Translations under genes and position numbers: made by a program | From: an uncultured Lachnospiraceae bacterium | Lineage (GTDB): Bacteria > Bacillota > Clostridia > Lachnospirales > Lachnospiraceae | NCBI GenBank assembly: GCA_947630855.1 | Contig: CANRJF010000021.1 | Coordinates: 1 to 36,980, forward strand | DNA: 36,980 bases | Direction of reading: 5' to 3' | Notes under the pieces: model-generated | What the model saw: only the letters and a program-made list of their open reading frames with translations | Database searches by the model: none | What the model was told of the DNA's origin: nothing | Shown here: piece by piece, positions 12,698 through 32,399 of the stretch | Position numbering within the stretch: position 1 is the stretch's first letter | Layout of the letters: each line of letters begins with the position of its first letter

Positions 12698-13644
12698 GCC
12701 TGTTCCTCTTTGTGTTTAATCGTATTAGTTTCTTTGCAAATATAAATGGGACGTCTCTTTACTTCTAAGTATGTCCTGGAAAGATAAGAGCCTAATACTC
12801 CGATACATAAAAGCTGAATGCCTCCCAAAAATATCATAATGCACACCATGGAAGGCCAGCCGAAAGCAGAGCCTCCATATAGTATCTGCCGTACAATAAT
12901 AAATATAATGGCAAGTGCTGAAATACCGCACATAAGAACGCCGAAAAAAGAAGCCATGGACAAAGGCACGGTGGAAAACGCCACAATTCCCTCAATGGAA
13001 TACATAAACAGTTTCCAAAAAGACCATTTTGTCTCCCCTGCCACCCGTTCTACATTTTCAAATTCCAGCCATTTTGTGCGAAATCCCACCCAGCCGAACA
13101 GGCCTTTGGAAAAGCGGTTGTACTCCCCCAATTCCAAAAGCGCGTCCACAAAGCCGCGGTTCATCAGCCGGTAATCCCTGGCACCGTCCACAATATCTGT
13201 TCTGGAAATTTTATTTATCAGACGGTAGAACATTCTGGCAAAAAAGGAACGGACGGGTGGCTCCCCTTTTCTGGAAACACGCCTGGTTGCCACGGAATCA
13301 TAGCCTTCACTTACAATGGCATGATACATATCAGGAAGCAGGGCAGGGGGGTCCTGCAAATCGGCATCCATAATGCATACCAAATCTCCCCCCGCATACT
13401 GTAATCCTGCATAGATGGCTGCTTCCTTTCCAAAATTCCTGGAAAAGGAAACAAATTTTACACGGGAATCATAATCGGCTAATTTTTTAATTTCCTGTAA
13501 TGTATTGTCTTTGGAACCGTCGTTTACAAACAACAGTTCAAATTCTACCTCCTGCATTTTCTCCATTACTTTTTTCATCTCTTCATAGAAAAAATGCAGA
13601 GCTTCCTCCTCATTATAACAAGGCACTATGGCTGTTAAAAGCAT
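12694..13644 (-). CDS. GtrB-type polyprenyl-phosphate glycosyltransferase
   Basis: 316 residues, matching the bactoprenol glucosyltransferase group well. Motifs are LTAIVPCYNEEEAL, LLFVNDGSKDNT, SFSRNFGKEAA, MDADLQDPP, GARDYRLMNR and FSKGLFGWVGF. Two membrane helices follow at about 230-255 and 265-290, and then a short basic tail. It transfers a sugar from an NDP-sugar to undecaprenyl phosphate on the cytosolic side. The product is flipped (usually by GtrA) and used outside by a GT-C enzyme, which would fit the two GT-C-like genes immediately downstream. A GtrA-like gene lies at 29660-30175, not beside it. GGAGG precedes the ATG by six bases. Confidence 0.9.
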   Translation of the reverse strand: MLLTAIVPCYNEEEALHFFYEEMKKVMEKMQEVEFELLFVNDGSKDNTLQEIKKLADYDSRVKFVSFSRNFGKEAAIYAGLQYAGGDLVCIMDADLQDPPALLPDMYHAIVSEGYDSVATRRVSRKGEPPVRSFFARMFYRLINKISRTDIVDGARDYRLMNRGFVDALLELGEYNRFSKGLFGWVGFRTKWLEFENVERVAGETKWSFWKLFMYSIEGIVAFSTVPLSMASFFGVLMCGISALAIIFIIVRQILYGGSAFGWPSMVCIMIFLGGIQLLCIGVLGSYLSRTYLEVKRRPIYICKETNTIKHKEEQA

Positions 13645-16190: not shown

Positions 16191-16221
16191 TTGTATCTGT
16201 TCAGTACCTTCACAGTTACAA
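16191..16221. repeat. imperfect inverted repeat overlapping the end of the pyrophosphorylase gene
   Basis: TTGTATCTGT (16191-16200) and ACAGTTACAA (16212-16221) are inverted with one mismatch around TCAGTACCTTC. It spans the stop codon of the upstream gene. The same core, GTATCTGTTCAGTAC, recurs at 30475, and a weaker copy is at 36779. No T-run follows, so it is more likely an intergenic repeat or mRNA-processing hairpin than a terminator. Confidence 0.55.
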
Positions 16222-17142
16222 AAGTTTCTCTTTGTAAACACCCTGGGCCACCAGGCTGTGGATGGCATCCATAACACTCTGTTTATCCTCCTGGTATGTC
16301 ACCCCAAACCATCTGTCCCTGGTTTCCAGCACCCGCACATTTGCCCTGCCCTCGCTTAACATTTTATCTACAATCTTGGGCAGCAGGTATTCCTTCTTTA
16401 TATCTCCCTCTTGTACCTGGGATAAAAATTCTTTAAATCCACGTTCCAGTTCCTCTAAAAAACAGGGATACATGCCCCACATATTCATGGAAACATGGCA
16501 GTTCTCATCTAATTCCACCTCATTGTTATCATCATCAAGCCCCATTAATTTCCCGTTTTTATACTGGATATCATAGGTTTCTGTCACTTTCTGCAACACA
16601 TTATTTTCCGTTATATTGCATACTCCTCTGGTGACGCCGCCGTTTTCACTTAATGTATTCTTTAAAATAAATCCGGCCATGCACATTTCATAAGGATTGG
16701 TGTTTTCTGCTTTTTCCTGCTGCTCTATCAGGTAATCATGGAGTTTTACAAATGCTTCTTTTCCGTAATAATCATCCGCATTAATCACAACAAACGGGTT
16801 TTTCACCATGTCTTTTACGGCAAGCACTGCCTGTCCCGTCCCCCAGGGCTTTGTCCTTCCCTGAGGCTTTGTAAATCCTTCCGGCAAATCGGAAAGCTCC
16901 TGGAATGCATATTTCACAGGAAGGATTTTCTCTATCCTGTTGCCGATTACTTCCTTAAAATCTTTCTCTAAGTCATGGCGTATAATAAAAACTACTTCCT
17001 GAAAACCGGCCTCCATGGCATCATAAATGGAATAATCCATAATAATCTCGCCCCCCGGCCCCACAGGCGCTAACTGCTTGATTCCTCCGCCGAAACGGCT
17101 GCCAATTCCTGCCGCCATAATTACCAATGTAGTTTGTGTCAT
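16216..17142 (-). CDS. NDP-sugar pyrophosphorylase (nucleotidyltransferase family)
   Basis: 308 residues. The N-terminal signature AAGIGSRFGGGIKQ (10-23) is the NTP-binding loop of sugar-1-phosphate nucleotidyltransferases, and INADDYYG near residue 118 is the metal and sugar-phosphate motif. It should join a sugar-1-phosphate to UTP or another NTP, making an activated sugar and pyrophosphate. The base and sugar used cannot be told. It is the first gene of the assembly operon, behind two promoters, with AAAGGAG before the ATG. It may supply the donor for the initiating transferase at 738-2147 or for the GT2 enzymes. The last codons lie inside a short inverted repeat. Confidence 0.85.
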   Translation of the reverse strand: MTQTTLVIMAAGIGSRFGGGIKQLAPVGPGGEIIMDYSIYDAMEAGFQEVVFIIRHDLEKDFKEVIGNRIEKILPVKYAFQELSDLPEGFTKPQGRTKPWGTGQAVLAVKDMVKNPFVVINADDYYGKEAFVKLHDYLIEQQEKAENTNPYEMCMAGFILKNTLSENGGVTRGVCNITENNVLQKVTETYDIQYKNGKLMGLDDDNNEVELDENCHVSMNMWGMYPCFLEELERGFKEFLSQVQEGDIKKEYLLPKIVDKMLSEGRANVRVLETRDRWFGVTYQEDKQSVMDAIHSLVAQGVYKEKLL

Positions 17143-17331: not shown

Positions 17332-17895
17332 TCATTTTTTCTCTTTCAGCTTCTTATCAAGTTTTTCTTTTTCCTCACGTTTCTTTCTGGTTTTTAACCA
17401 GCGTTCTTCTTCCGCCGTGTACTTTTTCTGTATTTTATTTGTATTGCTATTTCCGCTTCCCGCATTTGCTGTTCTCATGCCGCCGCAGGATGACTGTCTG
17501 TTTCCATTGGCATCATATGTCACGGTTCTGCCTCCCAGTACCACGCCATCTCTTTGCGCCCACCCATAAACCATTGCGTTTGCCACTGCTTCACCCGACA
17601 AGTTCCATTCCATTTTCTTCGCAAATTCCGGGTCATCTGCCATTTTCTTTAAACAGTCATAAGAAAGATTTACCGTGACTTTCCTGCTATTGCCTGGTAA
17701 TACACCCCCATTTGTATTGAAATTTATCCGGGGAAATTTTTTACATAATTTTTCATAGTATTCCTGTACTCTGTCCCTGCTGTTTGCTGATGTGCTTGGC
17801 CTTGCCTCCCTTGCCGGGCTGCTTTCTGCCTTTTTCCTGTTGTCCATGTAATTTGCTGCATAATTACTATAATTGTTTGTAATCTCCATTGCCAT
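17332..17895 (-). CDS. DUF6033-like protein
   Basis: The chosen start (ATG 17893-17895, AGGTG nine bases before) gives 187 residues. The open frame extends to 18042, but that part looks non-coding and includes an inverted repeat. The protein begins MAMEITNNYSNYAANY, has a low-complexity Ser/Ala linker, then a conserved-looking core (VQEYYEKLCKKFPRINF to VTVNLSYDCLKKMADDPEFAKKMEW). It ends in a highly basic, probably coiled tail (RWLKTRKKREEKEKLDKKLKEKK). There is no signal peptide or membrane segment. Proteins of this type occur in many Clostridia, but I know of no assigned function. The DUF assignment comes from memory of the pattern. Confidence 0.7.
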   Translation of the reverse strand: MAMEITNNYSNYAANYMDNRKKAESSPAREARPSTSANSRDRVQEYYEKLCKKFPRINFNTNGGVLPGNSRKVTVNLSYDCLKKMADDPEFAKKMEWNLSGEAVANAMVYGWAQRDGVVLGGRTVTYDANGNRQSSCGGMRTANAGSGNSNTNKIQKKYTAEEERWLKTRKKREEKEKLDKKLKEKK

Positions 17896-17929
17896 ATAAA
17901 ACACCTGTCCTTCCTCTGTTATGTTACTA

Positions 17930-17962
17930 AGGAACTGTCCATAAATAACTTGTGCAGTTCCT
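17930..17962. repeat. 8-bp perfect inverted repeat upstream of the DUF6033-like gene
   Basis: AGGAACTG (17930-17937) and CAGTTCCT (17955-17962) flank 17 bases. It lies in the probable 5' leader, about 35 bp before the chosen ATG. It could be an operator, a leader hairpin or a remnant of a mobile-element end. No clear promoter was seen in the remaining 155-bp gap. Confidence 0.35.
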
Positions 17963-18020
17963 AATTGATTTATCGTCAATCTGCACATTTTTATCAGAGG
18001 TTTGGCGCGAACTGCTTTAT

Positions 18021-18035
18021 TTTGGGTGTGAAATT
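18021..18035 (+). repeat. 15-bp direct repeat, left copy
   Basis: TTTGGGTGTGAAATT here matches TTTAGGTGTGAAATT at 19865-19879 in the same orientation with one difference. The pair brackets the AAA-like/nuclease gene and its upstream hairpins, as expected if that segment was inserted or duplicated. Confidence 0.5.
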
Positions 18036-18050
18036 GTATCACTCTTAGGA

Positions 18051-19667
18051 TTATAAAACTTCCACTATACAGGAATGCTTCTTTGATGTCTTTTCATAAC
18101 TAATCCCGACAGCAAGAATTCTTCCCGAATATTTGGGTATTTCACCAATTTTTCCCTGAAAACGAAGGGCATACTTTTTCTCCCTAATCTGCCGGATTGC
18201 TTCCTTTGGAGTATGGCCTGCCTTTAATTCCAAAATCATGCAGTCCGCACTTTTATCAATTTCCGGATAGAAGATAAAATCCACATATCCTTTTCCAGCC
18301 TTATCTTCCCGTTCCACCCGGTAGGTATCGCGGGCTGCCAGATAAATCAGGTTTACGACTGCTGCCAATTCTGTCTCATGGTTATAACTGAGAATTGGTA
18401 TTTCTGTATCATGTACCAACTCCAGAATCTCTTCCATAGTTTTTGTGTCCCCGGCAAGTGTCGCCTGCAGCATACGCTCCGATTCCTTCGCCAGACGGTA
18501 AACATACCCCAATGAAGGTTCCCTTTTTAGAATCTCTGCAAACTTATCTCCCAGTTCCTTATTGGGAATGGATACCTTCCCGTTTTCATAACTCAAAAAC
18601 CCATAAACCAACATAGCTGAAAATATTTCTTCCTTTGTCTTCAGTTCCTGTGAAGCAGCCGCATACTCCCTGATTTTTACCGATACCGGAATACCAGATA
18701 CAAGCCGTGCCAGGTCGTCCCTCACTGCATCCACATTATGCTCAATATAATAGTAGATTTCATCATATGGCCCGGAACCGGTCCAATAATTTCCTAAATT
18801 ATTGTTGGATAAAGACATTACCACAGAACGCGGATTATACAGACGCTCTCCCGCTCTCGTATGATACCCGTCATACCATTCTTTCAATCCTTCACGGGTA
18901 ACCTGTTTTTCTCTTTCCGTCCGTTCCTGATACCGCAAAAACAAAAGGTCAACTTCCTTTTCTGTAAATCCAAAATATTCAGAAAACTTCTCCTCGGAGG
19001 CCATCGTAAATTCGCTGAACATATTCAGCTCCGAACCGCTTGAATATTTGGCAATTGGAAGAATACCCGTCATATAAGCCAGCCGCACATATGGCCTGTC
19101 TTTCAACAGATTACGCAGAAACGTCAGGTAGTCCCTTTTGTCATTTTCTGATGTGAAGTTTTGATGAAAAATAAAATCCCACTCATCCAGGATAAAGACA
19201 AACTGAGCCGTATCATCCTCCGCATACAGTTCAAGAAGCGCCTGTGCCGCACCCTCTCCCACATCTATATCTGTTTTGGGATACTCTTTCTTTATATCTT
19301 TTACCAGCTTTTTTTCAATACTGTCAATGTATTGTTCATAAGAGCTGCACCGTCCGCCCAACTCGTTAAAGGAAATATGAATGACCGGAAATTTATTCCT
19401 GTATTTATCATACTCCTCTGATTTTGCAATTAAAAGAGGCTGAAAAATCTCCTGTGCATCATATGTTTTTGAAAAGAAGGATGCAATCATATTTGCCATA
19501 ACTGTTTTTCCAAACCTTCTTGGCCGCGTAATACAGATATGGTTATTTCCCGTCTGGACGAACGGAAACAATTCTTCCAGCATCTTGGTTTTATCCACAA
19601 AATATGGCTTTTCCGTTTCGCTCTTATATAATGTGTATGCCGATTTGCTGTTTAAATAAATACCCAT
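18051..19667 (-). CDS. AAA-like ATPase / PD-(D/E)XK nuclease-fold protein
   Basis: 538 residues. The amino half is the AAA-ATPase-like domain, with YFVDKT near residue 22, a phosphate-binding loop RPRRFGKT at 48-55 and a Walker B-like strand FVFILDEWD. The carboxyl end is a PD-(D/E)XK fold (DUF1703/PDDEXK_9 type), with YVDFIFYP supplying the Asp and MILELKAG supplying the Glu-x-Lys, so the nuclease site looks intact. Such genes are repeated in many gut Firmicutes and Bacteroidetes genomes. Their role is unproven and may involve mobile-element or phage conflicts. AAAGGAG precedes the ATG. A TATAAT (19701-19706) sits at the edge of the 77-bp palindrome and may be its -10. A second family member lies at 30702-32399. 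Confidence 0.87.
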   Translation of the reverse strand: MGIYLNSKSAYTLYKSETEKPYFVDKTKMLEELFPFVQTGNNHICITRPRRFGKTVMANMIASFFSKTYDAQEIFQPLLIAKSEEYDKYRNKFPVIHISFNELGGRCSSYEQYIDSIEKKLVKDIKKEYPKTDIDVGEGAAQALLELYAEDDTAQFVFILDEWDFIFHQNFTSENDKRDYLTFLRNLLKDRPYVRLAYMTGILPIAKYSSGSELNMFSEFTMASEEKFSEYFGFTEKEVDLLFLRYQERTEREKQVTREGLKEWYDGYHTRAGERLYNPRSVVMSLSNNNLGNYWTGSGPYDEIYYYIEHNVDAVRDDLARLVSGIPVSVKIREYAAASQELKTKEEIFSAMLVYGFLSYENGKVSIPNKELGDKFAEILKREPSLGYVYRLAKESERMLQATLAGDTKTMEEILELVHDTEIPILSYNHETELAAVVNLIYLAARDTYRVEREDKAGKGYVDFIFYPEIDKSADCMILELKAGHTPKEAIRQIREKKYALRFQGKIGEIPKYSGRILAVGISYEKTSKKHSCIVEVL

Positions 19668-19705: not shown

Positions 19706-19782
19706 ATGATACCAGGGTCATAAAGCCTGATTGCACGGAATGCAAGCATTCCGTGTAGTCAGGCTTTTGACCCTGGTATCAT
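19706..19782. repeat. 77-bp nearly perfect palindrome
   Basis: Outer arms ATGATACCAGGGTCA (19706-19720) and its exact complement (19768-19782), middle arms AAAGCCTGA (19722-19730) and TCAGGCTTT (19759-19767), and inner arms CACGGAATGC (19734-19743) and GCATTCCGTG (19746-19755) all pair, with AA at the centre. Only one bulge and one 3-base internal loop break it. No T-run follows on either strand, so it is not a standard terminator. It lies just before the AAA-like gene and overlaps the region where its -35 would be. Candidates are a palindromic intergenic repeat, a mini mobile element or a regulatory hairpin. Confidence 0.85.
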
Positions 19783-19881: not shown

Positions 19882-22800
19882 CTAAATACTTCCTCCCCGC
19901 ACCACATCCGACTGCAACATAAACGCAGAATGCATGGTTTCATCTCCCCGCTGTACATAAAAGCTGCATCCTAATACCTTCTTTGCGGGCATTTGTATTT
20001 TTAAAAGGAAACTCTCCCCCTCCATGGGCCTTAAAGCTTCCGGGAAACGGTACACTTCATTTTCCCTGGTGAGTTCCACTTCATCACTATGCCGAACCAT
20101 GCCAAGTATACGAAAATCCTCACGGATACAATTTAAAGCAAATCCTTCTATGGAATCACTTCCCTTTGCAGTAAGGGAAAACTCCAGCGGCTCATTGAGC
20201 CCTGCCGGTTCTTTGGCATAGGCCAAAAAGCCATGGGCACAGCCTTCCATCAAGGCAAGCAGCCCCTCTGTATCCTGGCTTTCCAGGTACTGGGCACGGT
20301 GGATATCATATTCATATATCTCCGAAATTCCTCCGGCCGCTTTCACCTCTTTCTCATTATCCTCATCCAGGGCAAAATACAAAACATCTTTTATCTGAAG
20401 GTTGAGTCTTACCGAAACAGACATCACCCCCTCCTCCAAATACTGCTGTGACATAACCACCGGTGCCTCCGGCCTCTCCCTGCCAGGGAAATTCAAATCA
20501 TTTTCCACTGTAACCGGTATGGAAAAACGCGCCGGGTCATTGGAAGTAAACCATTTTACAAATATTTTTGACCTCACTCCCATAAACTGTATCTGGTAAT
20601 CCAAGGATTCTTTCTCTTTTTCCCCGTCCCACACATAGGCCACAGTTACGGTTCCCTCTTTGCCGTCACAGGAGAACATGGCAGGATAAGACTGTACCTG
20701 GGAAATATCACCATAAGCAGTAACGGATTCCTCCTCCCCTGCTTTAATTTCCTGGCTTTTACATCCTCCGCATAAAAACATAAGATTTTTCAGGGAAATC
20801 TGGAAATCAGAAAGCAGTAACTCCTTAAGATATCCAGAAACTGCCTCTTTCTTCTCCTCCTCTCCATACACCGGGGCAACAAGCCCGGAAATAACTTCTG
20901 CCATGTATCGGCGCAAATTTCCCGTGCGTTTTAAAAGTTCCGGCTCCCCGTTTTTCTCCAGAGTGCGGATATCCTCTCTAAACTTCTCCCAAATCTGCTC
21001 CACATCCAGAGAACTGACACTGATTTTTGCATCTGTATCTGACACCATTCCGGTATAAAAAGGAAATCCTGTATACGCCCATGTTTTCATAACATCAAAA
21101 TCCGCCGGTTCCCTGTTATACCCAAGAACCCTGTACTCTCCTCCCCATTTAAAAATGGCATATTTCTCCGCCGTATCTAACATAGACCAGGAGATTCCAT
21201 CCTCATACACATCCTCGTTTGTCTGCGGTTCATAAATGGAAAGTTCCGTCACAGCCTCCCTGACTTCCTCCGGCAGGCCCTCCATGCACAAATCCTTATC
21301 CCTGGATAAACGAAGTTTCAGGCTTACCTCTTCTAACATATTTTCTTCCATGGTACAAACGCCTAATTCCATGGTCCATGATATACGCTCTTTAGACCGG
21401 GCATCCAGACATTTCTCCAGAAATTCCACAAATTCACGCTTGTCGTATTCCCATTCTTCCCCATTATCCATAAGGGGCGTTGAGAAATACATTTTCACAT
21501 CCGGCTGTTTCAACTGATGGATTTCATAGGCAAAATCTTCCTTCTCATAATTATCCGGGTCAAATAGAACATACAAAACAATCTTAACCTGCTCACCTTC
21601 TTCCTTTAAAAAGTAGGTGACTTTTAAACCGGAATACTGGGTGGGAGTCTTTAATACATCCGTATATTTTGGTGTAATAGAATACGTTCCGAACACATCA
21701 GACTTATTTCCCAGCACATCCGTTGCAAACAAACTTACACGGCAAGTCTTTTTTCCGCTGATTCCTGCATATACATCCGTCTTGTCTTCCCCTAAAAAGC
21801 GGTAATAGGGCACGGTAAGACGATACCACATATTTTCATCCTGAGATTTTGCAAAAGCAGGAATACTCTCACCGCTGATTGCATTTCCCTCCTCATCTTC
21901 TATGATAAATGCCAGACTTAAGGCATTCATGGCATCCTTGCAGGCAAGAGAAGCATATAACCCCCTCCGGCCCTGACCCACTTTTTCCAGCCAGGTTTCC
22001 TGTTTTAAACGTATTTCCAATTCCTGCCCTTTATCTCCCTGCTGCCAGATTCCGTTGAGCCAGCGGCGGCATACCCCCTTCTCCTGCTGTGGGAAACGGA
22101 TTGCCAAAACAAGCTGTGTTATATCGGCCCCGCCGGGAAGGAATACGGCGCCCCCTAATATGTAATTTCCATCCACACGCAATGACTCTGCCAAAAGCCG
22201 TAAAAACAACATGGGTTCCCGGGAAAGATATGCATAAAACTCTTCCTCCCCTGCATCTTCATTTATCAAAGTCACTGGCTTATCCTGCGTACTTAAACTG
22301 TTTTTTGCAATCCAAATATCTCCCTGCCACTTTTCATAACTGCCGGAATTTAAAGAATCTTTAAAATAAAGTTCTGCGGATTCAATGGACAGGGCCGTAT
22401 CTTCCCTGCTTAAATCCTCAAGCAGGCTAAACAATTCCTCCGTCTCACCATAACCCTCTATGGTGTAACGTATTGCCCCCTCTTCATTATACGAAAGCAG
22501 CACATTAAGAGACATAAGGAACATCATGCCCCCCTTATCTCCCTGATAGGAAAATTCCCGTCCTTCCTGCCCCGCAATATTACATTTATAACAGGAAATT
22601 CCCTGGGAAAATTCTGCCATCCGGGCAAGGTAAACCGATACTTCCTCCACTTTTCCGTAATAATCAATAAGTTCCGGCTCTCCCTGGGGAAAGCCAAGTT
22701 CCCACTTATCCGGCAGGTACTCCCTGATGTCCGAAAGGGTAATGGAACTGGTAAATGTTTCCTCCCCCTGATAAAAAACAAACCAGTCAGGAGCATCCTC

Positions 22801-25800
22801 ATTTCTTTTAAGCACAAAAGAAATTTCCTCAAGATTGTTTAAATCTCTGATTTCAAACTGACAGCCTGCTTTTTCATATGCTCCGGTAACTTCCATAGCG
22901 CCTGCCTCCTTTGGCACACGCTTTCCCCCCAGCAGGAAACGCTGGGTCATTCCCATAATATTTTCCAGCTCCTCCTCTGTAATGTCATAAGAATGAAAAT
23001 CACATCCGGCGCTTTCCGTCTCCTGTTTCTGGGCACGGACTGCCTTAAGAACCAGCTCAAAATACTCTTCAAAAATATATTCCGATATTGTCCGGGGCTC
23101 ATTCTCCTTAAGACCATCCATAAGCTGGGATTTTTCCTCCATATCCCGGTAATATTCATTTAATGTAAAGAAATAAGCGGTATCCAGCTTTTCCGTTTCT
23201 TCAAGATTTACCCTGTCCAAATGTTCCTGCCCGCTTATCACCTGATGGAACTCTTCTGTCACATATACCGGCATAGGCATCACAACCGTTTCTTTCTCTT
23301 TTTCCTCCTGGGATGGTTCCGTAAGCACAAAGCGGATTCTGCTCCCTAAAAACTCCTCTATTTCATCCGGCCCACTGAAGAATTTTTCCATGGCAAACAA
23401 CTCCATCCCATGGGTTCCCGAAAGCCCTCCGTTCTCCTCCGCCATCTGTGCCAGAATTTCCACAAACACTTTAAAATTCTCCCTTGACATGCCTGCAAAA
23501 AGCACCAGAGGATAACTTTCTCCCACAAAGGGAGCCGTATACACCGGCACAAGCCATATGGGAATTTCCGTAACTTCTCCCCCGGTAAAAAACAGGCGTT
23601 CCCTCTGTCTGTTATATCCCTGCACTGCCCATACCGGAGTTTCATTTCTCCCCAGTTCAAAATCCAGGGAAAAATTAAGAGAAAATCCAAAGGAAATCCT
23701 CCACCATAAAACTTTCACATAGGCAGAAGCGTGGACATACAGGCTTAAATGCAGAACCGCCGCTTTACTGCTCTCTAAGCGCAGCCTGGCTCCGGCCCGT
23801 ATCTGCAAAGATACCCCGGCGCCAATAATGCCGAAATTCACATTTCCGTTAAGGCATCCGTATACTTCCACATCAGCCTCCACCCTGTAATAAGTCTGTC
23901 CCTCCCCCCCTTTATAGGGCACAAAAGTAGCGTAGACACCCTGGAAAATCCCTGTCATCGTAAGGCTGACTCCGGCGCTTAAAATCCCGATGCTAAAACT
24001 CTTGGAAAGCCCCATCCTAAGCCCGATTCCGCAGGATAATACCGGAGAAAAATAACCCTTGCTGCTGACTGGAACCTGTCTGGAACTCTGCAGCGTATCC
24101 TTTGATAAATAAATGCCACCGCTGCCATAAAAAATTCCGTATTTCAGAGAAAAACTCATGGAGAAATTCCGGTTATGGGGAAATCCTAAATCTATGGAAA
24201 AATCACCGTTGGTATACACGGATACTGCAATATTTCCAATTCCAATGGCTATCCCGCCAAAATCAATATTCCTAAGGCTGGCAGAAGGCACAATCCTGCC
24301 GGAAAATACACCGGTGGTATCATTTACTTTTGTGTACATAATTTCTGCTTCCAGGCCCTTTAACTTTCCTGCCCTACTGCCATACAAGCCAAATTTTGCG
24401 CCGCACAGAGAATTACTCTGATTGTACACCAGCAATAAATCCACCGTATCTGCAATCTGGCAGGAAAGCCCCATCACTTTTCCCGCCTTTGCAGAAATCT
24501 TATCCGGAGACTTTTCTTTATTGATCTGGTTTTCAATGCAGATTAAATTCTTTTCTACGCTGCGCTCCCTTGTGGAAATGTCAATATGTTCCCCAAGGGC
24601 AAGATATTCCACATGCAAAGGAGAACCTGTGGAGGGAGGCGTCCCTGTGGTATCCCAGGATAAAGGATTATCCTCGGTGTATCTTTCACCCAGAAACGTA
24701 CCTGCCACCTGAAAACTGACACCGGAAGACTTCATGCAGACGCCCGCTTTCTCCAGTTTTGCAAAAGAAAGATTTGTATTCACATTCACCCAGATAGCCA
24801 GGCTTTTCTTTGTAATATTATAAGAGATTTCCACACCCTCCAGAGAAATATCATTTAAAAATCCCCAGTCACCGCTTTTTGTCATATTACTGTCCGGATT
24901 AATCAGATGCGTTAAGTAGGAGGCCGCCATGCCCAGGGTATACCCCCTCTTTGCAATCCTTCCCGTAATGATCTTTTCCTTATCCTCTTTATATGCAACC
25001 TCAATGCCAAACCCGTCAAACTCCAACGTTCCCTTAAGGTTTGCTGTTCCTCCTGATGCGGCATAATCCACCCCAATTTTTAACATATCATCCAGGGTAA
25101 GGGCGGCATACAAATGCAGCTCATTTCCACTGCCAAAAAGTTCTGCCTCAAGGTCAAAGGTTTTTCCAAACACCTGCCAGTTTGACACCTTTACCCCAAA
25201 ACTGCCCTCTAAATTCCCTGCTGTGCCGCCTGTCAAAGCAAAAGACAACTCTGCCTTTGTAAGAAAAATCTCCGGGAAATCCTCAGGCACCCTGACGTTA
25301 AACAAAGCCTCTGTAATGTCTGATATGGATATGGCATTTTCCCCCTCATAATCATAACCGTACCACTCCGAATATTGATTGGTAAAACCTGCCCGGCAGG
25401 TGACTTCCCCTTCACGGAAACCTGCCTCTAAGGAAAATTCCAGAATTTCCTCCCCGGATGTCTTTTTTAAGGCAAGCAAAGCGGCAAGGGAGGCATTTAA
25501 CCTGTTTTCCTCATAGAAAAAATCCACTCCTATATCCTCTAAGGCAAATTCTGCCCTCTGGTTTATTGAAACCTCTATCAAATCACTAAGCAGGACGCCA
25601 AAATAGAACTCTTTCTCCTCCGGATTTACCACAACACTAATCTGGGAAACTTTCATGCCCGCAAATGCTTTTGGCAGAGGATAGCCCAGGTAATAATCTG
25701 TTATGTCCGTAATCAGGGCATCCGCCTGCTGGCAGATATCCAGATGGAGCCCGGGCAGGGAAACCATTACATTCATAGATATAACAGGCTTTTCTGTTTT

Positions 25801-26646
25801 TCCCAGCACCAGCCTCCCTGAGAGCATACTGTTTATGCCCTCCCTTTTCCAGGAAAATAAAACTCTTGGGTCACAAATAGCAAGCCCTGGAATTCCGCCG
25901 TTAAAAATATCCCCCGAAAAACCTGCAGTAACGGAAAATCCAACAACTTTTAAATTATTTTTTTCTTTATTCAAATACTTCTGCCATTCCCCTGCCTCAA
26001 TAGAAAAACTAAATTCAAACAGCTTAATTTTATCCGTAAAATCAAGCCCCGCCGGAAGACATGAGGCAAAATCAATTTCCACTCCCAGCATAGAGGTAAG
26101 ATTTTTTATCCCATCCGTAACGGTAATCCCCTCGCTGCCTTTACTGTCATAAAAAGTCCCCTGTAAATCTATAATGCTTCCCTCGCAAAACAGGGGATAC
26201 TTTAATACCAGACCGATTTCCTCCCCGTCTGCGTCTTTATTTTCCACAAAATCCAGCTTCACGGCAAAATACATACTGCTGGTATATTCCGTCTTGTCCG
26301 TAAACCTTGTATTAGAAAACAAAAGGTAAGCGTCGCCCACCCTTCCCTTTAAGGGGCTTACATCCAGCTTGATTTTTTCCGCCGGCAGAGACAATGTCCC
26401 CTGAAATTCCTGGTCCTCACCTTTATCAAAAGAAACAGGATATTTTCCCTGAAACAGGGGATACCCCTGAAAGGCTTCACCATCCAGATTCAGATTTCCC
26501 CGGTATCCTTTTTCCGTTTTTTCCATGTCGCAAAGCACTAAATCATTTAAAACAGACTCCTGCTTTTCTAAAATTCCCCAACTGTTTCCCCTGTACTGGC
26601 CGCCGATTTTTCCCTGAAACAATTCTTTTAAAGTGATATCGCTCAT
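19882..26646 (-). CDS. 2,254-residue beta-rich repeat protein of unknown function
   Basis: A giant protein without signal peptide, membrane helix or sorting signal. Residues 1-640 are alternating beta strands with a unit recurring about every 125-140 residues: a short helix, then a Pro-rich turn, then Ile/Lys-x-Leu strands. Examples are SCLPAGLDFTDKIKLFEFSF near 196, YPLPKAFAGMKVSQISVVV near 322, VRVPEDFPEIFLTKAELSF near 451 and GFLNDISLEGVEISY near 595. Residues 785-1000 are Gly-rich amphipathic strands (FYGSGGIYLS, VLSCGIGLRMGLSKSFSIG, NFGIIGAGVSLQIRAGARL). Residues 1000-2254 are acidic, mixed alpha/beta and unlike anything I know. It begins with ATG overlapping the stop of the 514-aa gene (ATGA), with GGAAGGAG before it. 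The repeat style recalls DUF6603-type giant proteins, but that is uncertain. An intracellular scaffold, a toxin-like cargo or a shell are all open possibilities. Confidence 0.8.
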   Translation of the reverse strand: MSDITLKELFQGKIGGQYRGNSWGILEKQESVLNDLVLCDMEKTEKGYRGNLNLDGEAFQGYPLFQGKYPVSFDKGEDQEFQGTLSLPAEKIKLDVSPLKGRVGDAYLLFSNTRFTDKTEYTSSMYFAVKLDFVENKDADGEEIGLVLKYPLFCEGSIIDLQGTFYDSKGSEGITVTDGIKNLTSMLGVEIDFASCLPAGLDFTDKIKLFEFSFSIEAGEWQKYLNKEKNNLKVVGFSVTAGFSGDIFNGGIPGLAICDPRVLFSWKREGINSMLSGRLVLGKTEKPVISMNVMVSLPGLHLDICQQADALITDITDYYLGYPLPKAFAGMKVSQISVVVNPEEKEFYFGVLLSDLIEVSINQRAEFALEDIGVDFFYEENRLNASLAALLALKKTSGEEILEFSLEAGFREGEVTCRAGFTNQYSEWYGYDYEGENAISISDITEALFNVRVPEDFPEIFLTKAELSFALTGGTAGNLEGSFGVKVSNWQVFGKTFDLEAELFGSGNELHLYAALTLDDMLKIGVDYAASGGTANLKGTLEFDGFGIEVAYKEDKEKIITGRIAKRGYTLGMAASYLTHLINPDSNMTKSGDWGFLNDISLEGVEISYNITKKSLAIWVNVNTNLSFAKLEKAGVCMKSSGVSFQVAGTFLGERYTEDNPLSWDTTGTPPSTGSPLHVEYLALGEHIDISTRERSVEKNLICIENQINKEKSPDKISAKAGKVMGLSCQIADTVDLLLVYNQSNSLCGAKFGLYGSRAGKLKGLEAEIMYTKVNDTTGVFSGRIVPSASLRNIDFGGIAIGIGNIAVSVYTNGDFSIDLGFPHNRNFSMSFSLKYGIFYGSGGIYLSKDTLQSSRQVPVSSKGYFSPVLSCGIGLRMGLSKSFSIGILSAGVSLTMTGIFQGVYATFVPYKGGEGQTYYRVEADVEVYGCLNGNVNFGIIGAGVSLQIRAGARLRLESSKAAVLHLSLYVHASAYVKVLWWRISFGFSLNFSLDFELGRNETPVWAVQGYNRQRERLFFTGGEVTEIPIWLVPVYTAPFVGESYPLVLFAGMSRENFKVFVEILAQMAEENGGLSGTHGMELFAMEKFFSGPDEIEEFLGSRIRFVLTEPSQEEKEKETVVMPMPVYVTEEFHQVISGQEHLDRVNLEETEKLDTAYFFTLNEYYRDMEEKSQLMDGLKENEPRTISEYIFEEYFELVLKAVRAQKQETESAGCDFHSYDITEEELENIMGMTQRFLLGGKRVPKEAGAMEVTGAYEKAGCQFEIRDLNNLEEISFVLKRNEDAPDWFVFYQGEETFTSSITLSDIREYLPDKWELGFPQGEPELIDYYGKVEEVSVYLARMAEFSQGISCYKCNIAGQEGREFSYQGDKGGMMFLMSLNVLLSYNEEGAIRYTIEGYGETEELFSLLEDLSREDTALSIESAELYFKDSLNSGSYEKWQGDIWIAKNSLSTQDKPVTLINEDAGEEEFYAYLSREPMLFLRLLAESLRVDGNYILGGAVFLPGGADITQLVLAIRFPQQEKGVCRRWLNGIWQQGDKGQELEIRLKQETWLEKVGQGRRGLYASLACKDAMNALSLAFIIEDEEGNAISGESIPAFAKSQDENMWYRLTVPYYRFLGEDKTDVYAGISGKKTCRVSLFATDVLGNKSDVFGTYSITPKYTDVLKTPTQYSGLKVTYFLKEEGEQVKIVLYVLFDPDNYEKEDFAYEIHQLKQPDVKMYFSTPLMDNGEEWEYDKREFVEFLEKCLDARSKERISWTMELGVCTMEENMLEEVSLKLRLSRDKDLCMEGLPEEVREAVTELSIYEPQTNEDVYEDGISWSMLDTAEKYAIFKWGGEYRVLGYNREPADFDVMKTWAYTGFPFYTGMVSDTDAKISVSSLDVEQIWEKFREDIRTLEKNGEPELLKRTGNLRRYMAEVISGLVAPVYGEEEKKEAVSGYLKELLLSDFQISLKNLMFLCGGCKSQEIKAGEEESVTAYGDISQVQSYPAMFSCDGKEGTVTVAYVWDGEKEKESLDYQIQFMGVRSKIFVKWFTSNDPARFSIPVTVENDLNFPGRERPEAPVVMSQQYLEEGVMSVSVRLNLQIKDVLYFALDEDNEKEVKAAGGISEIYEYDIHRAQYLESQDTEGLLALMEGCAHGFLAYAKEPAGLNEPLEFSLTAKGSDSIEGFALNCIREDFRILGMVRHSDEVELTRENEVYRFPEALRPMEGESFLLKIQMPAKKVLGCSFYVQRGDETMHSAFMLQSDVVRGGSI

Positions 26647-28187
26647 GCTTTCTTCTCCTTCCTGTTATCATAAACACCATACCATGCATTCACCTGATTT
26701 CCGCCCGGCTCCCTGCCGGAGAGCAGTGCAATATCACAGCCTGCATTGGGAAATTTCAGTCCCATCATCCCTACGGAAAGTCCCTTTAACCGGATTTCCA
26801 GAGCATTTCCTGCATTTTTGCTGATTGCAGCGGAGGAAAAACCAATGCGGAACAGCCCTGCCACGGTAATGCCAAAATCCCCGGTTTTTCCGTATGCCAG
26901 AATTCTGGCTCCCGCATAAAAAACCGCCTTTCCCTCCTTTGTGCCGTAGGCAAATAAAATTTCCAGGCTTATCCCCTCCATAAGCTGCAGCCGGAAAATA
27001 AGCCCGTACCATTCCTCCGGAAGATTTCCCTGGGGATAAGGGGCGGAAATTGTCTGAAATCCCTGGCTTTTGGGTGTTTTCTGGTTCTGGTAATTTACAA
27101 AAGAAACATTTTGAAAAGAAAAAACATCACGAAATGAATTTTTACGGAATACCGACTTTTCCCACTGGGATGCCATTCTGCTGTAATCCCTGGAAAAAGA
27201 TAGAGTTTTATCTTTTTTCAACATAAAATTCATGGTAAGTCCGGCAAAAGGAAGCCCTTCCATGCCAGGGGCCTCTTCCTTTAAATCAATTCCAAAAGAA
27301 AAGGGGTCAAAAGTATCTGAAAGTTTGGAAAACAAAACGCTGCCTGCTAGTTTTACAGACAAAGCGGCATCCTCCCCCAAAGGCTCTAAGGAGGCTTCCA
27401 GACTTTTTACCAGCATTTCATAGATACATCCCCCGGCCAGAAAAACCGGAACGCTTTCCGATAAAACAAAACGGTACCGAAAAGACTTCCCCTGTCCCGA
27501 AAGCCTTTCATATCCCCCCGTGATATGGATAACTGAGCCGCCTGTGGGCGTTCCCCCAAAGATGGAGCCCGGACTAAAACTTATGGAAAGCCCGGAATAT
27601 AAAAATTCTCCCTGGCGGAAGAAAATATCCCCGTTTTCTACGGAAACATACTCCCCATTTGCGGAACAAAACGTCACACTATTTTCTAAACCGGCATATC
27701 CCCGGAAGACGGCTTTCGTAAAATCAGCCCCTTTCCCCTGGGGAAAATTCACGGAAGATACTACTGCCAGGGGAACATAAAATTTCCCCATGTCAAAAAG
27801 CACGGATACCCCTGCCGCACTTTTTTCTTTTATATTTATTTCTGTCTGAAACAAAACAATTCCACAAAAATCAGGCTGGTCTAAAAATCCAAACAGCTCC
27901 TTATATCCCTCCCGCTGGTTTCCTGTGAGGCTTCCGTTCATCAACTGGTCTAACCTTACCATATTTTCCCGCAGGCCGGCCAGGCAGCTTTCCGATGCCG
28001 AAACTTCCGCCTGCTCAGATATCAGCGTCCGAAGGCTTTTTCCCTTTTCTGTCTTGACCGCAAACAAACTCCCGCTTCTGTTTCCAAAGGTAATCTCATA
28101 ATTTTTACAGTTGCTAAAGGGTATATTCTCAAAACCTGTCCCAATAACTTTTTCCAGTTCTTTTTGCGTGTTTCCTATGTAAAGCAT
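26643..28187 (-). CDS. 514-residue beta-rich protein, partner of the giant protein
   Basis: The frame opens at 28235, but the start taken is ATG 28185-28187. There GAGG lies eight bases upstream, and the ATG overlaps the end of the MBL gene by 13 bp. The protein begins MLYIGNTQKELEKVIGTGF. It is strand-rich with Gly/Ser turns (SISFSPGSIFGGTPTGGSV, ITVAGLFRIGFSSAAIS). It repeats the Pro-strand pattern of the giant protein (GLPFAGLTMNFMLKKDKTLSF) and ends ALEIRLKGLSVGMMGLKF, and it has no signal peptide or membrane helix. The shared pattern suggests common origin and a complex with the giant protein. No known family is recognised and no catalytic motif is visible. Confidence 0.8.
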   Translation of the reverse strand: MLYIGNTQKELEKVIGTGFENIPFSNCKNYEITFGNRSGSLFAVKTEKGKSLRTLISEQAEVSASESCLAGLRENMVRLDQLMNGSLTGNQREGYKELFGFLDQPDFCGIVLFQTEINIKEKSAAGVSVLFDMGKFYVPLAVVSSVNFPQGKGADFTKAVFRGYAGLENSVTFCSANGEYVSVENGDIFFRQGEFLYSGLSISFSPGSIFGGTPTGGSVIHITGGYERLSGQGKSFRYRFVLSESVPVFLAGGCIYEMLVKSLEASLEPLGEDAALSVKLAGSVLFSKLSDTFDPFSFGIDLKEEAPGMEGLPFAGLTMNFMLKKDKTLSFSRDYSRMASQWEKSVFRKNSFRDVFSFQNVSFVNYQNQKTPKSQGFQTISAPYPQGNLPEEWYGLIFRLQLMEGISLEILFAYGTKEGKAVFYAGARILAYGKTGDFGITVAGLFRIGFSSAAISKNAGNALEIRLKGLSVGMMGLKFPNAGCDIALLSGREPGGNQVNAWYGVYDNRKEKKA

Positions 28188-29362
28188 GATTCCATCCTCA
28201 CTCCCTCTTTGTAATAAACCCGTTTTTCGTGACACAATTCATCTTCCTGCCGACGGAAAATATCCTCAAATACCGGCCTCTGCCGATGGTCATAGGCCCT
28301 GATATAGAAGATATCATCATCTGCCACCGGGGCATCCATGCGGATTTCATAAGAAAATTTCTGCAAATTACTTATCATGCCAGGCGCCATATTCCCATAA
28401 GCATCCCCGTCCAGAATAGTCCCATAAATTGCATCTTTGCTGTCTGCATACCACTGGGAAACCCAGCCTCCTCCCAGTAATTTGTATAACATTTCATCCT
28501 GTCCCCGGTACATCAGATAGTGCTGTGTCTCCTGGTTAATATGCAGGCTTAATTTTTGCAGCTTAATCATCACGTCCTGCCGGGGATGTTTATATGTCTT
28601 GTGTTTTCCCGCACTTGCCACAAAAATGCCTTTATCCATGCCGGAATTCTGAATACATAACGCTAAATTATCTAAATTGTAAGACCTGTACCCTGACGCA
28701 CTTGTTTCCACTGCGACAAAATTGTTTTTCTTTAATGTTTCAAGGGCGCCATGATGAGGCACGGTTATCACATGGGTTCTACTTCCTATAAACGCTTTCA
28801 TATTGTCCTTGATATTATAATTCCATAAATCGCAAAATGTGCTGCCTGTCATATCACCAGTGACAATTACCGCTGTTTTATTGGTACGGATGCCATAGAC
28901 GGCACAACGGTCATTAATCTCACCTCCAAAATTTGCCATAAAAGGACAAATTTCCACTCCTGGATAAGGAATATATGGTGCAGATATATTGCCAATATAA
29001 TTATCCGGTAAAAATTGCACATTCCCGGCTGAAAATTCTGAAAAATAATTTATCCATCTGACCACCTCTCTTCCATTATTCCCGTTCACGGAGCCCAATA
29101 CAAAATTATCCATATCCAGTTCCATAAATTTTAAAAGTCTGTAATGGTCCGCATCCATATGCGTGATAAAAGCATCCTTGTCTGCCGCATTATTTACAAT
29201 ATTTATCACTTCCCCTAAACTTTCCATTTTTTTTCTAAGAGGGTCAGAACAAGTTCCCGCATCAAATATCGCTGCATAAGGTATGTCGTCCCCATCTTCC
29301 ACCCAAAGCAGGTTTAAGGCTCCCTGCCCTACATAATACATTTTAAAATAAACCTCTGCCAT
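28175..29362 (-). CDS. ComEC-type MBL-fold metallohydrolase, first gene of the three-gene operon
   Basis: 395 residues with a full set of metal and active-site motifs: YYVGQGALNLL opening strand, IFDAGT, THMDADH at 67-73 (the HxDxDH form usual in ComEC-like hydrolases), VTGD (Asp170), VPHHGA at 201-206 and SAGKHKTYKHP with His259. A further 110 residues beyond the fold (from about 285) end in DELCHEKRVYYKEG and may contact partners. There is no signal peptide, so it acts in the cytosol. Its stop overlaps the next start, giving three coupled genes. A TATAGT at about 29402-29407 on the minus strand could be the -10, but no good -35 is seen. Substrate is unknown; phosphodiester bonds in nucleic acids or nucleotides are the usual targets of relatives. 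Confidence 0.85.
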   Translation of the reverse strand: MAEVYFKMYYVGQGALNLLWVEDGDDIPYAAIFDAGTCSDPLRKKMESLGEVINIVNNAADKDAFITHMDADHYRLLKFMELDMDNFVLGSVNGNNGREVVRWINYFSEFSAGNVQFLPDNYIGNISAPYIPYPGVEICPFMANFGGEINDRCAVYGIRTNKTAVIVTGDMTGSTFCDLWNYNIKDNMKAFIGSRTHVITVPHHGALETLKKNNFVAVETSASGYRSYNLDNLALCIQNSGMDKGIFVASAGKHKTYKHPRQDVMIKLQKLSLHINQETQHYLMYRGQDEMLYKLLGGGWVSQWYADSKDAIYGTILDGDAYGNMAPGMISNLQKFSYEIRMDAPVADDDIFYIRAYDHRQRPVFEDIFRRQEDELCHEKRVYYKEGVRMESCFT

Positions 29363-29403: not shown

Positions 29404-29448
29404 TATACAGGATTCTATCTGTTTTTTTATGTTTATATGGTATTTAAC
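29404..29448 (+). repeat. 45-bp diverged repeat, copy 1
   Basis: Starts TATACAGGATTCTATCTG and ends ATTTAAC. It aligns with 30528-30572 at 35 of 45 positions by eye, including 15 identical bases ATTCTATCTGTTTTT. It lies just upstream of the MBL gene and covers its possible promoter. The remaining part of the 29363-29659 gap holds the GtrA terminator and otherwise nothing recognisable. Confidence 0.5.
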
Positions 29449-29539
29449 CTGTTTTCAGGGATGTTTTGCATTTTTCATACCCACAACGCATTTATCTGGT
29501 TCGCGTCCGGGCACTTTTCCTTTGGACGCCTGTGTGCAT

Positions 29540-29659: not shown

Positions 29660-30175
29660 TTATTTAAACGCCCACAATTTATTGATAATAAAATTAAGGG
29701 GCACACTGATTAGCAGATTTATGACGGGCGCCACAAACTCTGAAATATGAAATATCTTCACCCACAATACCAGCAAAACACTGTTTAAAAATAATCCAGT
29801 GAAAGAATAGGAAACGTATGTCTTAAGCAGAGCTTTCCAAATTGTACGTTCCCCTCCTTCACCCACCTGAAACACAAACTTGTTGTTCCAGTAAAATGAC
29901 CACAAAACACTTAACACAAAAGCAATTCCCTGGGCGGCCAGATATCCTGACTTTGGAAGGATTCCCGCTTTACGGATAATTAACAGGCTTACCACATAAA
30001 GTACATAGGATATCACCGTATTGCTGACGCCTACGATGCCAAACTTTATAAACTGCATAAAATTTGCAAACATTTCATCCGACAAGTCTTTTTTCATAAG
30101 TCCAAATACTGTATTCATAAATACATACACAATTCTCTCGATTAAATTCCACAATTTACTTTCACTGCTCTGCAT
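29660..30175 (-). CDS. GtrA-like membrane protein
   Basis: 171 residues. After about 38 mostly soluble residues come four membrane helices with GtrA family features: FIKFGIVGVSNTVISYVLY, then AAQGIAFVLSVLWSFYWNNKFVF, a third helix FTGLFLNSVLLVLWV, and the ending NLLISVPLNFIINKLWAFK. GtrA proteins are thought to flip polyprenyl-phosphate sugars so that outer-face GT-C transferases can use them. The likely donor-maker, GtrB-type, is about 16 kb away at 12694-13644. The gene is monocistronic, between its own terminator and a promoter region with paired direct repeats. AAGGGG precedes the ATG. Confidence 0.87.
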   Translation of the reverse strand: MQSSESKLWNLIERIVYVFMNTVFGLMKKDLSDEMFANFMQFIKFGIVGVSNTVISYVLYVVSLLIIRKAGILPKSGYLAAQGIAFVLSVLWSFYWNNKFVFQVGEGGERTIWKALLKTYVSYSFTGLFLNSVLLVLWVKIFHISEFVAPVINLLISVPLNFIINKLWAFK

Positions 30176-30527: not shown

Positions 30528-30572
30528 TATACAACATTCTATCTGTTTTTCAATATCCAAGTGGCATTTAAC
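30528..30572 (+). repeat. 45-bp diverged repeat, copy 2
   Basis: Starts TATACAACATTCTATCTG and ends ATTTAAC; see the copy at 29404-29448, in the same orientation. Here it is about 130 bp upstream of the plus-strand AAA-like gene. Confidence 0.5.
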
Positions 30573-30637
30573 GGTTTTTATGTGCTATTCTGCAATAGTA
30601 AGTTACTGGATTTTTTCTTTGAAATGTGATAGCTTAT

Positions 30638-30658: not shown

Positions 30659-30701
30659 AAAACCAAAGTTGGTTAAGGTATCATGCACGGGAGGTCTATG
30701 T

Positions 30702-32399
30702 ATGAATCACAATACAGTGATAAATATTGGAGCACAAAAATTTGATACGCTGCGGGAACGAAATTCATTTTATATAGATAAAACAGGCTTTATCAGGGAA
30801 TGGTGGGAATATGGCTCAGACATCACACTAATCACACGCCCCCGGAGATTTGGAAAAACTTTGAATATGAGCACGGTCGAGTGCTTTTTTTCCAACCAGT
30901 ATGCAGGCAGGAGCGACTTGTTTGAAGGGCTTTCTATCTGGGAAGAAGAAAAGTACAGAAAATTACAGGGCACATACCCAGTATTATTTTTAAGTTTTGC
31001 TTCTGTCAAAACCGGAGAAATTGATGAGATAAAAAAATACGTCAAACACATTATCACAAATATTTACAGTGAATACAGAGACATTATGCAGTCAGATGTA
31101 TTTAATGATAATGACAGGAAAGCCTTTGCATCTGTAAATGTAAAAATGGATGATGTCACAGCCTATACTGCCATAAACACCCTCTGCATTTACCTTAAAA
31201 AGTATTATGGAAAAGATGTTATCATTCTCCTTGATGAGTATGACACGCCCATGCAGGAATCATGGCTTGCCGGAAGCTGGGATATGGCAGTTTCTTTTTT
31301 CAGGAAATTTTTTAACAGCACATTTAAAACCAATAAGCATATTTTGCGTGGTATCATCACCGGAATTACCAGAATTTCCAAAGAAAGCATATTTTCAGAC
31401 TTAAATAATCTGAAAGTCGTAACTACTACCTCTGAAAAATATGCCGCATATTTTGGTTTTACCGAAGAGGAAACATTTCATGCACTGGATGAACTGGGAC
31501 TGGGTGATGAAAAGCAAGGTGTAAAAAAATGGTATAACGGTTTTACCTTTGGCACACATACCGACATTTACAATCCCTGGTCCATCGCTTCATTTATAGA
31601 AAGCGGCGGAAAATATGAGACTTACTGGGCAGACACGAGTTCAAACGGACTTGTAAACTCCCTGATTCAAAAAGGAAATGCCGCAATAAAAGAAACCATG
31701 GAGGAACTTATACAGGGAAAAAGTTTTGCGGCCAGAATTGATGAACAGATTGTGTTCGACCAGTTGGACAATACAAATGCGGTTTGGAGCCTGCTGCTTG
31801 CAACGGGATATTTAAAGACAGCAGAATTAAAATACATTGGAGAACGAAAAGAAAAACAGTATACACTGGCACTTACCAACCTGGAAGTAAATATCATGTT
31901 TGAAAATATGGTAAAAACATGGTTTGGCGGCAATACTGAGATGGTGTATAACAATTTTATCAGGGCACTGTTGATAGATGATGTTGAATCCATGAATGAA
32001 TTTATGAATGACATAGCCCTTCACACTTTCTCAAATTTTGATATTGCAAAGAGTGCCTCCTCACAAGATGCCCCTGAACGATTTTATCATGGTTTTGTAT
32101 TGGGGCTGATGGTTGAGCTTACAGGCAGATTCAAAATAACCTCCAACAGGGAAAGCGGATTTGGACGCTACGACATTATGCTCACTCCTGTTGACAGAGA
32201 ACATGACCGGGCATATATTATAGAATTTAAAGTACACAAACATACAAAAGAAAAGAACCTGGAGGAAACCCTGGCAAACGCTCATGCCCAGATAGAGGAA
32301 AAACGTTACGAATCGGCGCTCATCCAGGATGGGTTTGCACCGGAGCAGATTAGAAAATACGGATTTGCGTTTAGGGGGAAGGAATGTTTGATTGGATAA
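30702..32399 (+). CDS. second AAA-like ATPase / PD-(D/E)XK nuclease-fold protein
   Basis: 565 residues from ATG 30702-30704, which has GGGAGG seven to eight bases before it. A longer frame begins at TTG 30669 without such support. Domain order matches the gene at 18051-19667. It has FYIDKT, the loop RPRRFGKT, a Walker B-like VIILLDEYDTPM, the RGIITGITRISKESIFSDLNN sensor region (20 residues or so after it), and a C-terminal nuclease fold with RYDIMLTP (Asp) and AYIIEFKVHK (Glu-x-Lys). The two proteins are clearly different subgroups, not a recent copy. It is the only sizeable plus-strand gene and faces the rmd gene, sharing a terminator. Function is not established. Confidence 0.87.
   Translation: MNHNTVINIGAQKFDTLRERNSFYIDKTGFIREWWEYGSDITLITRPRRFGKTLNMSTVECFFSNQYAGRSDLFEGLSIWEEEKYRKLQGTYPVLFLSFASVKTGEIDEIKKYVKHIITNIYSEYRDIMQSDVFNDNDRKAFASVNVKMDDVTAYTAINTLCIYLKKYYGKDVIILLDEYDTPMQESWLAGSWDMAVSFFRKFFNSTFKTNKHILRGIITGITRISKESIFSDLNNLKVVTTTSEKYAAYFGFTEEETFHALDELGLGDEKQGVKKWYNGFTFGTHTDIYNPWSIASFIESGGKYETYWADTSSNGLVNSLIQKGNAAIKETMEELIQGKSFAARIDEQIVFDQLDNTNAVWSLLLATGYLKTAELKYIGERKEKQYTLALTNLEVNIMFENMVKTWFGGNTEMVYNNFIRALLIDDVESMNEFMNDIALHTFSNFDIAKSASSQDAPERFYHGFVLGLMVELTGRFKITSNRESGFGRYDIMLTPVDREHDRAYIIEFKVHKHTKEKNLEETLANAHAQIEEKRYESALIQDGFAPEQIRKYGFAFRGKECLIG

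Follow-up and report, generated by a model that had tools for sequence, protein, structure and literature searches.

A reduced M-giant operon with a ComEC-type metallo-beta-lactamase-fold hydrolase in a Lachnospiraceae genome, and exchange of the partner enzyme among its relatives

The window, as we call the whole 36,980-nt stretch analyzed here (contig CANRJF010000021.1, assembly GCA_947630855.1, from an uncultured Lachnospiraceae bacterium), carries on its reverse strand three overlapping genes that together span 9.5 kb. The first encodes a metallo-beta-lactamase (MBL)-fold hydrolase of 395 amino acids (aa) counted from its ATG (28175-29362), a putative partner enzyme of ComEC type. The middle gene (26643-28235) reads as 530 aa from a GTG at 28235 or as 514 aa from an ATG at 28187; the latter has GGGAGTGAGG ahead of it and gives an overlap with the MBL gene of 13 bp. 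The last gene (19882-26646) encodes a giant beta-rich protein of 2,254 aa, whose ATG is preceded by AGGAAGGAG and which overlaps the middle gene by 4 bp. All three frames are free of internal stops, and coordinates and open frames confirm the overlapping arrangement reported in a preliminary description of this DNA. That description also held that the two large proteins lack a signal peptide, a membrane helix and any recognized domain. In agreement, no hydrophobic N-terminus was found in the three proteins (by hydropathy, without a signal-peptide predictor), and neither the giant nor the middle protein gave a match at E up to 1 in Pfam, NCBIfam, PADLOC or PHROGs.

The giant has a conserved core (residues ~560-1012; 23611-24969, reverse strand), recognized by a core alignment and a predicted model and marked by a YTNGDFxxDxGFP motif and long meandering strands, followed by a post-core region (19885-23616, same strand). 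A profile of this core led to 202 confirmed relatives in GTDB genomes, all retrieved with a single peptide pattern, and the 80 best were retained; the counts that follow therefore lean towards the query's relatives. The 80 kept loci belong to 12 phyla (Bacteroidota 23, Pseudomonadota 19, Cyanobacteriota 12, Acidobacteriota 7, Bacillota 6, Actinomycetota 5, with one or two loci in each of six further phyla), and the core tree requires 25 phylum changes for these 12 phyla. In total, 93 non-redundant loci were analyzed after two duplicates (L063, L066) were dropped.

A second large gene, upstream of the giant and on its strand, was detected by six-frame profile search in 87 of the 93 loci. It encodes a family of ~1,150 aa (mostly 960-1,370 aa), here called M. 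The six loci without it (C119, L031, L044, L057, L084 and L085) have at most 2.4 kb between the giant and the sequence end, and M and the giant are constant partners wherever the sequence reaches. We define the M-giant operon type by a giant core with an adjacent M, and the window has both. An upstream protein with FN3 or laminin-G domains (U) is present in 49 of the 93 loci and absent from the window; because it is not universal, it is not part of the definition. The order M-enzyme-giant is found in 54 of the 87 loci with M, and the window's order, MBL-M-giant, is unusual. The suggestion that the three genes stay together thus holds for M and the giant, the misses being cut short upstream, and fails for the MBL, labeled in 36 of 93 loci. 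The opposite outcome foreseen in the preliminary description, that giant homologues would usually occur without the other two genes, is what was found for the MBL (57 of 93 loci have none labeled, five of them being too short upstream), and is not what was found for the middle gene. As a coupled unit, the operon recurs in unrelated organisms and contexts. Eight plasmid records, belonging to seven genera, matched portions of the window giant within residues ~520-1040; no phage record did, and one viral contig (L106) matched the giant core. This viral-contig relative has M and a giant that continues into a large C-terminal part; no enzyme was found in it, and it may be a bacterial stretch.

By profile alignment, the middle protein of the window (514/530 aa) is a shortened M member consisting of the C-terminal half, because M profiles align it only at their C-terminal part. 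A profile built without it matched with 105 bits over model positions 812-1119 of 1129, and a fuller profile, which holds it as one of 61 rows, aligned it over positions 656-1099 of 1101 (E 1.7e-82). What was first described as a 514-aa beta-rich protein thus belongs to a larger family, of which it keeps half the length. A predicted model of M is beta-rich (predicted local distance difference test, pLDDT, 89) and had no close solved relative in one structure comparison. No homology was seen between M and the giant, for which the preliminary description had noted a shared Pro-strand pattern: an M profile run against the open reading frames (ORFs) of 95 loci, giants included, returned M proteins only (E up to 1e-4). 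LysM repeats in giants apart, no Pfam or NCBIfam family was found in M or the giant core among the members scanned (for Pfam, four whole giants, four M proteins and 16 post-core regions), and no description of either was found in the literature searched.

Giants range from 2,000 to 4,700 aa across relatives, and their core has 24 invariant columns among 64 sequences. The model of residues 1-1045 of the window giant is beta-rich and contains a large curved beta sheet, with pLDDT, per block of ten residues, of at least 86 over residues 721-1000 and of 62-86 over residues 560-720. The beta-rich character first ascribed to both large proteins is thus supported by models for this part of the giant and for M. 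Residues 673-1000 of the model resemble outer-membrane beta-barrels (porins, FimD, BtuB, LptD) at 5-12% identity and mostly large root-mean-square deviation. Unlike these barrels, the giant has no signal peptide that could be read and occurs also in Lachnospiraceae; a likeness of arrangement does not imply kinship.

The active site of the window MBL is intact, with motifs THMDADH at residues 67-73, GD at 169-170 and PHH at 202-204, and the ligands H68, D72, H73, D170, H203 and H204 are invariant among 35 aligned MBL proteins. When the family profile was compared with solved structures, the best matches were MBL domains of ComEC (9vc6, E 2.6e-24), and the HxDxDH, GD, PHHGS and HP motifs aligned across the active site, the HP region of the window row reading HKTYKHP. 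An intact ComEC-type active site, as originally proposed, is hence upheld through the family profile. As a single sequence, the window MBL found nothing in Pfam (E up to 1) or the PDB; its best library matches were a PHROG of unknown function (0.006), RTasMBL (0.021) and ComEC_Rec2 (0.031, far under its cut-off), and NCBIfam TIGR00361 gave 12.4 bits over 30 residues against a cut-off of 190. Lactamase_B (Pfam, E up to 0.01) was recognized in 19 of the 35 single MBL rows, and seven loci carry two or three MBLs in tandem. The ComEC/Rec2 DNA-uptake protein unites a polytopic membrane channel and an MBL in one protein. Its C-terminal MBL domain (PDB 9vc6, 9ic4, 30bt) has motifs in common with the window MBL family; the window enzyme, in contrast, is a stand-alone protein of 395 aa with neither a hydrophobic N-terminus nor a membrane channel, is encoded in an operon with M and the giant, and is not itself a ComEC/Rec2 uptake protein.

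Other enzymes hold the partner place in other lineages. Labels were assigned by six-frame profiles (E <= 1e-5) with seeds from the same loci, except that L053 and L054 were labeled EEP after reading and L052 was labeled HNH from Pfam; five loci with short upstream DNA (L031, L064, L071, L084 and L085) stayed unlabeled. The profile found MBLs in 37 loci, of which L067 holds a fragment that lies beside neither M nor the giant and was labeled "none". A DNase I-like EEP protein, absent from the window locus, occupies the place of the MBL in 24 of the 93 loci, 22 by profile and two (L053, L054) on weaker evidence: the L053 protein scored 14.8 bits and is 34% identical to the EEP of L060 (E 3.4e-43), and the L054 label rests on a same-length counterpart of the L053 protein in a close relative. 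In L058 and L060 the EEP gene is upstream of M rather than between M and the giant. The EEP profile, whose 20 rows include the HNH protein and two glycosyltransferase (GT)-like ones, has DNase I as its best solved match (2.8e-8), and Pfam (E up to 0.01) recognized Exo_endo_phos in nine of these rows and HNH in one. A GT-B-like domain is present in nine loci, fused to the N-terminus of the giant in six of them, and an HNH protein in one (L052; Pfam HNH 8.1e-4, with a CxxC/EH motif read).

On a careful core tree of 90 rows, from which three long-branch rows (Azolipo, Lysini and L098) were removed, the enzyme labels require at least 8 changes, or 12 when "none" is counted, compared with a mean of 42.0 for shuffled labels; the partner enzyme is therefore inherited but repeatedly exchanged. 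A quick tree that kept the three long-branch rows gave 13 and 8 changes. Distances between MBLs were also correlated with those between cores: across 34 MBL loci, with the window and C119 excluded, the Spearman coefficient was 0.81, and the highest value in 999 permutations was 0.477. Signal peptides were read on the MBLs of L079, L100 and L104, and by BLAST these three cluster separately from the main group of 37, suggesting that the same fold was acquired independently.

A divergent second copy is present in the host genome (3.93 Mb, 255 contigs), on contig C119. Its MBL (399 aa) and giant (2,237 aa) are both open, the giant being 28% identical to that of the window over residues 20-2139, and a Hint-like protein is encoded downstream (Pfam E 8e-4, under cut-off). 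The contig ends ~130 bases upstream of the MBL gene, and the only M in the genome is that of the window. Among 299 genomes of the family searched, the giant was detected in five (E <= 1e-5) and the MBL in two (E <= 1e-10). An AAA-ATPase_like plus PDDEXK_9 gene also lies downstream of the C119 copy (L010 3-1553), 57% identical to the window gene at 30669-32399.

In the window we see a reduced form of an operon type for which we found no earlier description. The interpretation we favor, with some reservation and at rather less than even confidence, is that M and the giant serve as an extracytoplasmic carrier of an enzyme. LysM was found in 14 of the 16 post-core regions scanned (not in that of the window), and a home-made profile placed the repeats mostly in two zones of this region; FN3 was found in seven and laminin-G in three of 15 U proteins scanned. 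Hint-like proteins occur in eight loci and collagen-like ones in five, according to BLAST clusters of flanking ORFs, which were named by reading only and leave ORFs shorter than 110 aa uncalled. Sec-type signal peptides were read on the partner enzymes of L053, L060, L079, L100 and L104. Because of the LysM, FN3, laminin-G and Hint-like domains and the signal peptides on some enzymes, an extracytoplasmic site is preferred over the cytosolic one first envisaged, which now appears doubtful. These features speak for action of the full systems outside the cytoplasm; the window may be placed there by analogy only, since it lacks LysM, U and half of M and the argument rests on its relatives.

We infer that the giant and M would together build a large scaffold of beta sheets, by which the enzyme would be carried or deployed beyond the cytoplasm of the producer, either at the surface or in released particles, with FN3 and laminin-G in U and LysM in the giant giving attachment to glycans or cell walls. 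MBL, EEP and HNH enzymes would then cut nucleic acid, and the GT would modify a target. In the window, a pared-down scaffold would hold an MBL acting as a metal-dependent nuclease or phosphodiesterase. Several findings weigh against this interpretation. In 15 loci inspected by eye, without a predictor, no signal peptide was seen on the giants, the M proteins or most of the partner enzymes, and no secretion, lysis or immunity gene was recognized among the recurring flank families. A 19-residue stretch above hydropathy 1.6 is present in 87 of 95 giants and in 24 of 87 M proteins (the highest value in the window giant is 1.52); we take such stretches as greasy strands, and they may be membrane segments. 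The Hint matches checked fall under Pfam cut-offs, and the window itself has no LysM, no U and only the C-terminal half of M. By profiles, 23 of the 87 loci with M have no enzyme, four of which have one on other evidence (L052, L053, L054 and Mycetohabitans). GT-B was assigned from motifs recognized by eye, the GT profile found no solved relative, and the GT type fits poorly with a pure nuclease story. Finally, the matches of the MBL profile include the phosphorylcholine esterase CbpE (5.7e-7), and the substrate may therefore be a phosphodiester other than nucleic acid.

M-giant loci have a constant carrier, an exchangeable payload, Hint-like proteins and adhesion-type domains in common with polymorphic toxin systems (PMC3482391). 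In those systems, the payload is a C-terminal domain of the carrier, whereas here it is a separate gene, as in the 54 loci with the order M-enzyme-giant, or an N-terminal GT fusion in six loci. Polymorphic toxins also come with an adjacent immunity gene and a signal for secretion or trafficking. Here, no immunity gene family was recognized among the recurring flanks, within the limits of ORF calling and naming given above, and Sec signals were read on some partner enzymes but not on giants or M.

An intracellular conflict or anti-phage system, in which the giant and M would act as sensors or restraints until infection sets free the exchangeable nuclease as effector, is unlikely in our judgment, even if exchange of effectors beside constant partners, the nuclease types, the lack of a readable signal peptide on most parts and the scattered spread over phyla would all suit it. 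PADLOC-DB 2.0.0 gave no match (E up to 1) for the window giant and M and only RTasMBL for the MBL, no NTPase or nucleotide-sensor family was recognized among flank families found in at least four loci (named by reading), and the FN3, LysM, laminin-G and collagen-like parts, together with the signal peptides on some enzymes, also count against it. Were it true, it would represent a new defense type with giant partners. We consider it equally improbable that the proteins form a hydrolase complex outside the cell that serves nutrition or the envelope, anchored through LysM and FN3 and degrading extracellular nucleic acid or polymers with phosphodiester bonds, for example teichoic-acid decorations. 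The match of the MBL profile to CbpE/Pce, the reach of the EEP profile to sphingomyelinase (0.032), the signal peptides on enzymes of five loci and the position of the window among glycan-type genes are consistent with it; conversely, HNH in one locus and DNase I as best EEP match point to nucleic acids, the GT is no scavenging enzyme, and proteins of the size of these giants would be costly for a scavenger.

It seems very unlikely that the system is a tail- or Tc-like particle, released to deliver its enzyme into other cells by injection. Giants without a Sec signal, FN3, LysM and Hint-like modules, a variable enzymatic payload and the large curved beta sheet of the giant model would accord with such a particle, but no tail, sheath or Rhs-type Pfam match was found in the four giants, four M proteins and 16 post-core regions, and matches of the giant to viral DNA amount to the single viral contig and no phage record. 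That the window copy is a decaying remnant without present function, as the loss of half of M, of LysM and of U, the changed gene order and its long stem in the core tree could indicate, is similarly hard to credit given three open frames over 9.5 kb, retained catalytic ligands, plausible ribosome-binding sites and a divergent second copy in the same genome that keeps MBL and giant open.

Returning to the carrier interpretation, two large families in whose scanned members no Pfam or NCBIfam match was found (LysM repeats in the giants apart), spread over 12 phyla among the 80 loci and with unrelated enzyme folds in the partner place, suggest an apparatus of general use and not a peculiarity of one lineage, and the exchange pattern predicts that this apparatus still works after the enzyme is changed. 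More tentatively, and with some doubt on our part, M and the giant scaffold may constitute a new class of enzyme carriers, found in at least 12 phyla, that deploys unrelated DNA-cutting or sugar-transferring enzymes outside the cytoplasm without a classical signal and in which the fold of M is unmatched among the solved structures compared. The window would be the minimal version of this class, for which an MBL, a half-length M and a giant without LysM may suffice. If the carrier interpretation is true, the operon would represent a new way for bacteria to field nucleases.

Among the flanks of relatives, a family of 230-280 aa recurs in 13 loci (BLAST clusters). Several loci of Bacteroidota and cyanobacteria in which no known enzyme is present encode conserved proteins of 133-180 aa immediately upstream of the giant (L076, L082, L086, L090 and L094; L072, L075, L078, L081, L085, L087, L088, L092 and L093). 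Response-regulator-like and histidine-kinase-like families, named by reading, are found in six flanks each, mostly in Bacteroidota (L040, L073, L079, L082, L086, L090, L094, L100 and L104). The Azospirillum lipoferum copy (L025 27535-36981) adjoins a type III-B CRISPR (cmr) cluster and transposases.

In the window, AAA-ATPase-like/PDDEXK_9 genes lie on both sides of the unit, as first reported, at 18051-19667 and 30669-32399; they are not among the families that recur in at least four loci. The gap between the giant and the next gene contains nested inverted repeats (19706-19782), possibly the end of the unit, and a promoter-like site for that next gene (19809-19781, consensus matches only). 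On the other side, a GtrA-like gene (29660-30175) separates the MBL from the AAA-ATPase-like gene at 30669, and is bracketed by a 67-nt direct repeat with 72% identity (29404-29470 and 30528-30594). A DUF6033 protein is encoded at 17332-18042, downstream of the AAA gene. The wider surroundings consist of glycan-type genes, including a nucleotidyltransferase-like gene (16216-17142) and a GT2-like gene (12694-13644). Counterparts of both (62.7 and 38% identical, respectively) lie near the giant in the G250 locus, so that two giant copies in the family are found among similar glycan genes.

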